Assembly (NCBI GenBank): GCA_002898575.1
Contig: BEHT01000006.1
Span: forward strand, 1 to 64,000
Reading direction: 5' to 3'
Origin: a bacterium HR17
GTDB lineage: Bacteria > Armatimonadota > Fervidibacteria > Fervidibacterales > Fervidibacteraceae
Length of the DNA: 64,000 nt
Shown in pieces: positions 28,682 to 52,722 of this stretch. A program made the position numbers and the translations under genes. Each line of letters opens with the position of its first letter. Position 1 is the first letter of the stretch. The notes beneath the pieces were generated by a model. The model made no database searches and was not told the DNA's origin. It saw only the letters and a program-made list of their open reading frames with translations.

Positions 28682-28716
28682 ATGCTGAACCTTCGGAGCA
28701 TCGCATCTTAACACCC

Positions 28717-28848
28717 TCGCTGTGTTGAATAATGGGGTTTGGTCGGAGGGCGGCGCTCCCGAGCCGCCGAAAAAATGACATGAACACCGTAAGGGTGCGT
28801 CAGGCGACGCGCCCTCTAAGGCACTGCTGAAAGGCAACATCAACAAAG
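28717..28848 (-). repeat. Hairpin-rich dispersed repeat, copy A (MITE/REP-like)
   Basis: Read on the minus strand, it aligns with copies at 48894-49039 and 52243-52380: a GCTTTGTTGA start, a GGGCGCGTC...GACGCACCC hairpin, a GGCGGCTC...GCCGCC hairpin, then CCAAACCCCATTATTCAACA. The ends form near inverted repeats around TTGAAT/ATTCAA. It fills the gap between the YprB-like and MFS genes; the rest of that gap (to 28945) holds nothing else visible. Confidence 0.75.
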
Positions 28849-28945
28849 CCAACGCCCTCAAAAAGCGGACGGGGTATGTTCGTTGTTCGGCAGCGCGGGC
28901 ATTTCGGAGCGTCCATGCCTCAGTAGGTAAACAAAGGGAAGGGGT

Positions 28946-34636: not shown

Positions 34637-35743
34637 ATGGCGCTACACCTCAATGACATCCTGACGGAGTTGGTGCAACGGGACGGGAGCGACCTGCATT
34701 TGAAAGTGGGGCAGCCGCCTTTTTTCCGTGTGCATGGACGACTCACCCGCACCGATTACCCGACCCTTACCCCTGACCTCATCCGCGAACTGATCTACGC
34801 CATCTTGACAGACGAGCAAATTCGTCGGCTTGAGGAACGGCGCGAACTGGACATGGCGTATGAGTTGCCAAACATCAGCCGGTTTCGGGTGAACCTCTTT
34901 CACCAACAGGGCTATTTGGGCGGGGTTTTTCGGGTGATCCCCAGCCGCATCCGCACGATAGACGATTTGGGGTTACCGCAGGTGCTCAAGCAAATCGCGT
35001 TGCTGCGACGCGGGTTGGTGCTGGTGACCGGTCCGACAGGGTCAGGTAAGACGACGACTTTAGCCGCTATCGTAGATTACATCAACGAACACCGACGCGC
35101 CCACATCATCACCATTGAAGAGCCGATTGAGTATTGGCACGACGACAAATTGGCGTCCATCACCCAACGCGAGGTGGGAGCGGACACCGAAAGTTTCGCC
35201 GAAGCGCTGCGCCATGTCATGCGTCAAAACCCCGATGTCATCCTCGTCGGCGAAATGCGGGACTTGGAGACCATCGCCCTCGCCATCACCGCCGCCGAAA
35301 CCGGGCACTTGGTCTTCAGCACCGTCCACACCATTGACGCGCCGCAAACGATTGACCGCATCATTGACGCTTTTGACCCTGACCGCCAACCGCAGGTGCG
35401 GGTGCAACTGTCCACGACTTTGCAGGCGGTCATCTCGCAGCAGTTGGTGCCGCGTTGTGACCGCCCTGGACGGGTGGCGGCGATGGAAATCATGATCGTC
35501 ACCCCGGCGGTGCGCTCCCTTATCCGGCAAGGACGCACCGACCAAATTTACAGCCACATCAAAGCCGGGTCCGAGATCGGGTGTCAGATGCTGGACGACC
35601 ACCTGTTCCAATTGGTCAAGGACGGCGTCGTCAGTTTTGAAGACGCCTTTATGAAGTGCAGCAACCCGACGGAGTTCAAGGCACGCATGCTGGACGCCGG
35701 TTTAATTACTGCGGAGCAAGCCGCCGCGTTCGCGACGATGTAA
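34637..35743 (+). CDS. pilT: PilT twitching-motility ATPase
   Basis: A 368-residue cytoplasmic hexameric ATPase that retracts type IV pili. The N-terminal PAS-like part has DGSDLHLKVGQPPFFRVHG. Walker A is GPTGSGKTT (residues 132-140), the Asp box is around ITIEEPIEYWH, Walker B is DVILVGEMRDLET, and the His box region has GHLVFSTVHT. A version of the AIRNLIRE retraction motif is seen as AVRSLIRQ. AAGGAGGTG lies 6 bases before ATG 34637, so a longer frame from 34574 is rejected. It is followed 24 bases later by a paralogue. Confidence 0.9.
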   Translation: MALHLNDILTELVQRDGSDLHLKVGQPPFFRVHGRLTRTDYPTLTPDLIRELIYAILTDEQIRRLEERRELDMAYELPNISRFRVNLFHQQGYLGGVFRVIPSRIRTIDDLGLPQVLKQIALLRRGLVLVTGPTGSGKTTTLAAIVDYINEHRRAHIITIEEPIEYWHDDKLASITQREVGADTESFAEALRHVMRQNPDVILVGEMRDLETIALAITAAETGHLVFSTVHTIDAPQTIDRIIDAFDPDRQPQVRVQLSTTLQAVISQQLVPRCDRPGRVAAMEIMIVTPAVRSLIRQGRTDQIYSHIKAGSEIGCQMLDDHLFQLVKDGVVSFEDAFMKCSNPTEFKARMLDAGLITAEQAAAFATM

Positions 35744-35767: not shown

Positions 35768-36859
35768 GTGGCAGCGACGATGACGCTGGACGATATCCTC
35801 CGCGTCGCCTTGCAGCGCAACTGCTCCGATGTGCACCTGAAAGCCGGTGCGCCACCGATGTTTCGCCTCTACGGTGAACTTTACAAAGCCAACGCGCCAC
35901 CGCTGACGCCGGACGATGTCCGTCGGTTGGCTTACAGCACCTTGACGCCGGAGCAAATCGCGCAATTTGAGCGACGGCGCGAATTAGATTTCGCGTTCAC
36001 CGCTGCCGATGGGGTACGCGTTCGCGCCAACTTGGCGCTTCAGCGCAACACGCCCGTCGCGTTCTACCGGCTCATTCCGCCACGCATCCCGTCCTTTGAG
36101 GAGTTAGGGTTACCATCCATCGTGCGCTACTTTTGTGAGCGCCCGCGCGGGATCGTCTTGGTGACGGGTCCTGCAGGTGCGGGCAAAACGACGACGCTTG
36201 CGTCAATGATTGACTACATCAATCAACGGTTTCCATTGCACATCATCACGGTAGAAGACCCCATTGAGTTCGTCCATCAAGACAAAATGGCACTGGTCAA
36301 TCAGCGGGAAGTCGGACGCGACACGCACTCGTTCGCCAACGCCCTCAAATACGCCCTGCGGGAAGACCCCGATGTCATCCTCATCGGCGAAATGCGGGAC
36401 TTGGAGACCATCGCCCTCGCCATCACCGCCGCCGAAACCGGGCACTTGGTCTTCGCGACACTGCACACCGTGGACGCGCCGCAAACGATTGACCGCATCA
36501 TTGATGTGTTCCCGACCCATCAACAGCAGCAAATTCGGATGCAATTATCGGTGAGCCTTGTCGGCGTCATTGCCCAACGGTTGCTGCGGCGCGCCGATGG
36601 CAAGGGCATGGTCGCCGCCTTTGAAGTGTTGGTCGGCACCAGCGCGGCACGAGCGCTCATCCGTGAGGGCAAAACCTTTCAACTGCCTTCGGTCATTCAG
36701 ACCGGATTGCGACAAGGGATGATGAGCCTGGAACACAGCCTCGCGCAACTGGTGCTACAAGGGTTAGTGCGCATGGAAGACGCCTTGGCGGAAGCCAACA
36801 ACCCCGACTACTTGCGCGAGTTAGTCCAACAAGGCAAGAAGGGGTCGGCATCGCTATGA
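35768..36859 (+). CDS. Second PilT-type ATPase (PilT/PilU paralogue)
   Basis: A 363-residue paralogue of the preceding gene with the same order of motifs: SDVHLKAGAPPMFRLYGE, Walker A GPAGAGKTT (residues 134-142), DVILIGEMRDLET, GHLVFATLHT. The C-terminal motif is AARALIREGK, nearer the PilT AIRNLIRE consensus than in the first copy. Start GTG 35768 follows GGTGGAGGTGA. Tandem PilT/PilU pairs elsewhere act as primary and accessory retraction motors. A 71-bp block (36384-36454) is identical to 35247-35317 in the first gene. Its TGA overlaps the ATG of the next gene (ATGA). Confidence 0.85.
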   Translation: MAATMTLDDILRVALQRNCSDVHLKAGAPPMFRLYGELYKANAPPLTPDDVRRLAYSTLTPEQIAQFERRRELDFAFTAADGVRVRANLALQRNTPVAFYRLIPPRIPSFEELGLPSIVRYFCERPRGIVLVTGPAGAGKTTTLASMIDYINQRFPLHIITVEDPIEFVHQDKMALVNQREVGRDTHSFANALKYALREDPDVILIGEMRDLETIALAITAAETGHLVFATLHTVDAPQTIDRIIDVFPTHQQQQIRMQLSVSLVGVIAQRLLRRADGKGMVAAFEVLVGTSAARALIREGKTFQLPSVIQTGLRQGMMSLEHSLAQLVLQGLVRMEDALAEANNPDYLRELVQQGKKGSASL

Positions 36860-48753: not shown

Positions 48754-48893
48754 AGTGACCTTGTCGCGCTCTCTGACGGCAGCCATCGCAGGGGTTTTGC
48801 TCAGCGACCGTGCAGTGGCGCTATTTGGTAGACCTTTCGCGACCGTTGCCGCAGCAGGGCAAACTGGACGAAGCACGGTGCCTTTACGCTGCG

Positions 48894-49039
48894 TTTGCTT
48901 TATTGAATTGTCTCTTGCGGCAATGCCTCGAAGGGTGCGTCTCCTGACGCGCCGTTATGTTTCGGCGGCTCTGGAGAGCCGCCCTCCGACCAAACCCTGT
49001 TATTCAACGCAGCACGCTGTTATTCAACGCAGCACGCTG
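48894..49039 (+). repeat. Hairpin-rich dispersed repeat, copy B (MITE/REP-like)
   Basis: It begins TTTGCTTTATTGAAT and carries the GGTGCGTC...GACGCGCC and GGCGGCTC...GAGCCGCC hairpins. It ends with TTATTCAACGCAGCACGCTG at 49000-49019, repeated exactly at 49020-49039. It aligns with copies A and C. It occupies most of the 48754-49084 gap; the first 140 bases of that gap hold no supportable gene. Confidence 0.75.
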
Positions 49040-49084
49040 CGCTTGCCCGCGATGATACTTTCTTTTGACCGGTGGGGTAAGACC

Positions 49085-52154: not shown

Positions 52155-52242
52155 AGTGTTCGCGACCGAAACAACTACTGTGCTGGATGACGGTGGGACG
52201 GGGCGTTTGGGAATCTGGTGGGATTTTTGCTTGTGTCCCTTT

Positions 52243-52380
52243 GTGCTTTGTTGAATCGTCCTTACGGCGGTGCCTCAGAGGGCGCGTCTCCCGACGCGCC
52301 GTTACGGTCTTCATGCCCGTCCATTTTCAGCGGCTCAGGAGAGCCGCCCTCCGAGCAAACCCCATTATTCAACACAGCAC
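52243..52380 (+). repeat. Hairpin-rich dispersed repeat, copy C (MITE/REP-like)
   Basis: The best-preserved copy, 138 bp. The ends GTGCTTTGTTGAAT and ATTCAACACAGCAC are a 14-bp terminal inverted repeat with one mismatch. Inside are GGCGCGTC-tccc-GACGCGCC and GCGGCTC-agga-GAGCCGC hairpins. No open frame across it looks like a protein. Confidence 0.8.
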
Positions 52381-52722
52381 CCCTTTGTCGGTGCGGCAAA
52401 GCCTTGGCTGAGTTTGCTGCTAATACCGCCCGGCGCTTTGGGCATTATGGTCGCGGAGAGGTTCACTGCCCACATGAGCCCGGTTAACCTGCAAATCAAC
52501 TGGGCTGCCAGTTCCTTCGCCAACGGCTTCTATCGTCCTTTTATGGAGCCTGTCACGACCGAGCACTACTGCGTTAACTGCTGTTTGGGAGAGCGAGTCG
52601 CCCAAACCGTTCATTGTTCGTGATAGCGAGAGGGCAGGCGATTAACACGGCGAAAAGCGCCCTCCATGTGTCATCATTCAAAATCAGTCGCACGAAACTG
52701 CAACGCCGGGAGTGACCGACCG
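52381..52722 (+). other. Non-coding gap upstream of cysK
   Basis: After repeat copy C there is about 340 bases with no gene I can support. Short frames on both strands lack binding sites and recognisable composition. A weak GAGGGC...GCCCTC pairing near 52631-52667 could form a leader hairpin for cysK, but it is not convincing. No known riboswitch pattern is seen. Confidence 0.4.

Follow-up and report, generated by a model that had tools for sequence, protein, structure and literature searches.

The window, which is the whole 64,000-nucleotide stretch of DNA analysed here, comes from a genome of the Armatimonadota (3.15 Mb in 75 contigs, assembly 96% complete) and carries three copies of a short element, referred to as copies A, B and C, whose coordinates include the terminal base of the inverted repeat. 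Copy C (52244..52379, + strand) is a complete element of 136 bp without a gene that runs from TGCTTTGTTGAAT to ATTCAACACAGCA, as recognised from its sequence and from matches elsewhere in the genome. Its terminal inverted repeat (TIR; GTGCTTTGTTGAAT/ATTCAACACAGCAC) and its two internal hairpins are as described in a first-pass annotation of this DNA; the TIR was scored here as 13 bp with one mismatch. Copy A (28718..28850, - strand) was likewise identified from sequence and genome matches, and copy B (48896..49034, + strand), identified from its sequence, has extra length because its right end is tandemly duplicated by 20 bp, giving two right ends at 49014 and 49034. All three are MITEs with a single REPIN-like pair, can be aligned from end to end with A inverted, as annotated, and are intergenic, none being covered by a called gene. 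According to the gene calls, which are rough in this genome, the genes on either side are divergent for A, convergent for B and co-directional for C. Elsewhere in the window, two 266-bp stretches with 79% identity (35102-35367 and 36239-36504) lie in neighbouring genes that are tandem paralogues.

The hairpins of copy C had been annotated as two separate structures; both are present, but they are inverted copies of one REP-like unit and together form a REPIN-like pair. By REP scoring, unit 1 (AGAGGGCGCGTCTCCCGACGCGCC) is located at 52277..52300 (+ strand) and the inverted unit 2 (GGAGGGCGGCTCTCCTGAGCCGCT) at 52329..52352 (- strand). The unit, GGAG-GGCGNNTC-TCCT-GANNCGCC, has a GGAG foot, a stem of the form GGCGSSTC/GASSCGCC and a loop that is mostly TCCT. 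In the genome, 341 + 352 matches to the REP core with at most 2 mismatches were found, compared with 0 + 0 for a reversed control pattern; this total of about 690 excludes chance. This inverted, roughly 690-fold unit bears out the REP family suggested in the first-pass annotation, where its form was not stated. Among 400 units, 277 have fully paired stems. Pairing is seen at stem position 5 in 95% and at position 6 in 93% of the units, compared with 47% and 34% under independence, and position 6 shows four pair types; this excess arises largely from two unit types per element and is therefore not a count of independent events. The features of REPs and REPINs, namely a hairpin with a 5' tetranucleotide foot, inverted doublets, high copy number and intergenic location, are all present. 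The foot differs from those described for REPs, which are GTAG/GTGG or CGTC in the accounts drawn on here (PMC3733652, PMC6006769).

A BLAST search of the whole genome with the 138-bp copy C resulted in 56 matches at E<=1e-3, about 43 of them covering most of the query, with identities of 75-87%. What had been annotated as a three-copy element is a family of dozens of copies with common ends, about 15 times bigger than could be seen from the window. The element ends are TGCTTTGTTGAATTT and ATTCAACACAGCA, with the consensus TGCTTTGTTGAATTTTCC and TGCTGTGTTGAATAATGG. REP clusters were identified by exact scoring and studied in detail in 0.79 Mb of contigs of this genome together with chosen loci, a sample that is enriched for known hits, so that the cluster counts given here do not equal genome-wide rates. 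None of 52 REP clusters lay within a called gene, even though coding sequence makes up about 80% of the total. The contigs C1, C2, C5, C6, C8 and C48 end within or next to REP arrays, so that the assembly is probably interrupted by such arrays and their number underestimated.

Outside this genome, copy C gave no match at E<=1e-4 in 200 other genomes, for each of which only a few candidates were scored, and phages, plasmids and viral contigs contained no match. The REP core was absent from two congeneric genomes and one family-level genome (G001-G003), two of which have a completeness of only about 60%. In G001, G002 and G004, TIR-like matches were weak, lay in apparently unrelated, largely coding sequence without the right end, and were rejected. 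The annotation had considered that each copy might be syntenic in all relatives; no syntenic copy was seen, and the nearest relatives share single genes around C. Also, no empty site was seen in a relative for any copy. The nearest genomes share only the gene adjoining copy C, with about 73% DNA identity, which makes the flanks unsuitable for an empty-site comparison; MITE families of such age leave no empty sites to compare.

Target-site duplications, which had been proposed as a check on mobility, were found around the copies. The comparison covered 31 elements that have both ends and used the 8 or 9 bases immediately outside them; as control, the left flank of one element was paired with the right flank of another. 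The flanks were at least 60% identical in 22 of the 31 elements (2.0 expected) and at least 87% identical in 12 (0.00 expected; permutation p<=5e-4). The 8-bp and 9-bp registers are both above the control, and some duplications seem to be 8 bp long instead of 9. The differences between the two sides are strongly biased, with 28 transitions against 6 transversions over the 31 elements. All three window copies have such decayed duplications. Copy C is flanked by TCCCTTTG (52236..52243) and CCCCTTTG (52380..52387; 7/8), and copy A by AACACCCTC on the low side (28710..28718, with one base in common with the TIR call) and AACGCCCTC on the high side (28851..28859; 8/9), both pairs being supported by the sequence and the duplication test. 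For copy B, the sequence shows CGCTGCGTT on the left (48887..48895) and, after the second right end, CGCTGCGCT (49035..49043; 8/9). Since the duplications flank the whole composite, shell and REP pair moved as a unit, and their decay indicates that this movement took place long ago. The element is short, non-coding and bounded by TIRs, and occurs in many dispersed copies with a duplication of constant length; it is a MITE, and the mobile element proposed in the annotation is borne out by the genome-wide copies and the target duplications.

Many elements contain more than one REP pair: from 4 to 24 REP units, in strictly alternating orientation, lie within one pair of TIRs. Where both flanks of an array can be read, one target duplication surrounds the whole array, as in arrays of 11 REPs (L243; GCCCATTTT, 9/9), 24 REPs (L248; GCCGCATC, 8/8), 12 REPs (C1:164701; TTGTCAGCG) and 6 REPs (L246; 7/8). 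Repeat units are 92% identical within arrays and 82% between arrays. One TIR pair and one duplication per array, together with the higher identity within arrays, point to expansion in place, which is the simplest reading of array growth. The spacer between REPs is 7-16 bp in arrays and 22-25 bp in single copies: 32 clusters are short and multiple, 2 short and single, 4 long and multiple, and 29 long and single (Fisher p=2e-12). If replication slipped on the tighter palindrome, this link between spacer and array would be explained.

The ends of the element resemble those of IS903 (IS5 family, IS903 group) and its non-autonomous derivatives. IS903B has the ends GGCTTTGTTGAATAAATC and a 9-bp target duplication, and GCTTTGTTGAAT agrees over 12 bases with the IS903B end as printed, with a different first base (PMC10569121). 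The MITE and IS903 resemble each other in the terminal GCTTTGTTGAATWW and in duplication length, 8-9 bp in the MITE, and a MITE derivative needs no coding capacity; on the other hand, the first base is T in the MITE and G in IS903, the interior of the MITE is unrelated, and no such transposase was found in this genome. Judged from the ends and the duplication length, an IS903-type mover is suggested. IS903-type (PF13737) transposases were found in four of 201 searched genomes, and this genome was not among them. Two whole PF13737 genes from the same phylum match the NCBIfam IS5-family model NF033579 (E 1e-96 and 2e-89); whole transposases are flanked by the ends GGCGTTGTTGCATAAAT at L262 and GGCTTTGTTGCATAACG at L263, and a PF13737 remnant at L264 lies between GGTTTTGTTGAATAA ends with the flanks TGAGATAC/TGAAATAC. 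In this genome, a search confined to PF13737, PF01609 and PF13610 gave 0 hits for each; families such as IS256, IS1595 and ISL3, which also duplicate 8-9 bp, lie outside its scope. The IS6 family, suggested by similar ends, was rejected because PF13610 is absent. The full-length transposase with the same ends that the annotation envisaged was not seen in the 0.79 Mb of contigs: none of them contains an element of IS length that combines such ends with a transposase, and the listed pairs of ends are loose matches. As no PF13737, PF01609 or IS6-type transposase was found, the MITE family is probably orphaned, and an orphan without a mover in its own genome is the simplest reading.

REP clusters without TIRs are also present. 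Among 70 clusters off contig ends with a near-perfect unit, 51 have at least one TIR; of the 19 TIR-less clusters, three retain sub-terminal MITE sequence (GTGCCTC or TTTGGTC), and the other 16 do not and become unique near TC|GGAG. TC is found at 28 of 38 edges of TIR-less clusters, where similarity stops near TC|GGAG..CTCC|GA. These REPs may have moved alone or may be remnants. Long direct repeats around TIR-less REPs were rejected as a general rule, being found in only 2 of 26 cases. Two single TIR-less REPs, at C1:75506-75529 and C2:40365-40388, have direct repeats of 19 and 25 bp on their flanks, well beyond chance (control maximum 12 bp). A gene matching the NCBIfam REP-associated tyrosine transposase (RAYT) is located on contig C41 (L031, 29343-29672) amid GTAG-footed doublets (GTAGCGTCGTCCCTTGTGGACGACGG ... 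CCGTCGGGGACAAGCCCCGACGCTAC), which make up another REP family of this genome, one of canonical type. This is the only RAYT found in the genome, and no GGAG REPs flank it. A RAYT as mover of the GGAG unit was rejected also in other Armatimonadota, where none of 29 RAYT loci has repeated REPs of this type; two of these loci hold single matches with 3 mismatches.

In our view, the element is quite probably a MITE of the IS5/IS903 type that carries a REPIN-like inverted pair of REP hairpins, which in many copies has since been expanded in place. An IS5-family (IS903-group) DDE transposase acting in trans would have recognised the 13-18-bp ends, and each insertion would have duplicated 8-9 bp of target. 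The transposase, now absent from the assembly, would since have been lost, leaving the copies as decaying relics or awaiting a helper. Once inserted, the element may have had its long palindromic core, mainly in the short-spacer variant, multiplied by replication slippage or unequal recombination, and this multiplication in place would have resulted in tandem arrays within one TIR pair.

The REPs without a shell allow other readings. It is doubtful, but conceivable, that the GGAG-footed pair is the true mobile unit of a REP/REPIN system, moved by a RAYT, with the TIR shell as a recurrent target or captured once. The 8-bp stem with GGAG immediately on its 5' side, the doublets in inverted arrangement and the arrays of alternating orientation resemble REPs, REPINs and BIMEs (PMC3116915, PMC2817692), some clusters lack TIRs and lose similarity at the foot, and a RAYT (Y1 transposase) is present in the genome; however, that RAYT lies amid GTAG-footed REPs, GGAG is not among the feet described in the accounts cited above, 51 of 70 clusters keep a TIR, and the target duplications enclose the whole composite. 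A two-level element can be proposed only tentatively, in which a self-spreading REPIN-like unit would have entered an IS903-type MITE, be carried to new sites by a DDE transposase and multiply in short-spacer shells, one sequence family thus being subject to two routes of transposition and to local amplification. That all REPs derive from the MITE core, the TIR-less ones by deletion, recombination or array breakage and without separate mobility, is a serious possibility though short of probable: core sequences are identical in TIR-less and shelled REPs, and the three clusters with sub-terminal sequence fit it. Against it, the other 16 have intact stems and unrelated flanks close to the outermost GGAG, and they hold five of the seven GGCGGTTC variants, a weak association (p=0.02).

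Selection for a structured RNA or a regulatory element, such as a terminator, an mRNA stabiliser or a riboswitch-like element, was the other option of the first-pass annotation, and we regard it as very improbable. The hairpins are strong, with fold z-scores of -5.9 and -6.8 for copy C, and the pairing of stem positions 5 and 6 exceeds independence, mostly through the two unit types, but copies A and B fold more weakly than C and there is no Rfam match, either at the gathering threshold or at E<=1. In addition, all gene orientations are represented without convergent enrichment (3 convergent, 6 divergent and 30 co-directional gaps, compared with 23, 53 and 202 of all gaps), and target duplications and array growth are typical of mobile DNA. 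The MITE presumably has no host function.

As a rule, MITEs and REPINs are regarded as distinct classes, each with its own transposases. In this genome, one kind of mobile DNA sits inside the other, and the target duplications indicate that the REP doublet travelled within a shell of what appears to be the DDE type. Single insertions range, in a natural gradation, from one REP pair up to an array of 24 REPs, and the link between spacer length and array growth makes the origin of bacterial palindromic arrays directly testable. The family is also a concrete case of how REPs that lack a RAYT of their own might spread.

Like REPINs and BIMEs, the family is made up of short hairpins that have a tetranucleotide foot and are arranged as inverted pairs, in hundreds of intergenic copies and tandem clusters; it differs in its GGAG foot, the lack of a cognate RAYT among those found and the location of most units within a TIR shell. 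Tandem REPIN clusters are on record for Pseudomonas fluorescens, with up to four REPINs per ordered cluster in strain SBW25 (PMC3116915), compared with up to 24 REPs per shell here. REP dimers nested in palindromes have been reported for Anabaena variabilis and Halothiobacillus neapolitanus, where palindromes without the dimer were not found; the excerpts of that account drawn on here present the palindromes as targets and mention neither transposon ends nor target duplications, whereas the present shell has IS-like ends, target duplications and arrays grown in place (PMC3733652). Correia elements, RUP, ERIC and other bacterial MITEs are likewise short, gene-less, bounded by TIRs and intergenic, and Correia and RUP are related to IS630, but no expanding REP array is described for them in the excerpts of PMC2817692. 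The nesting of REPs is thus already known from these sources, and the present family adds to them the IS-like ends and duplications, by which the nested pair is marked as travelling with its shell, as well as the link between spacer length and array growth.

Hairpins with a GGAG foot also occur in other genomes. One lies at the RAYT locus L294 and is distinct from the present unit. Arrays of GGGAGGGYGAGGCTCCTGCCGAACC-like hairpins with a GGAG foot and a TCCT loop are found at L176, in a genome of the same order (G004, ~1400-1800), and at L179 (G034); their stem is broken by tandem G.A pairs (GGC-GA-GGC/GCC-GA-GCC), and they possibly belong to a wider GGAG-footed repeat family in the phylum.
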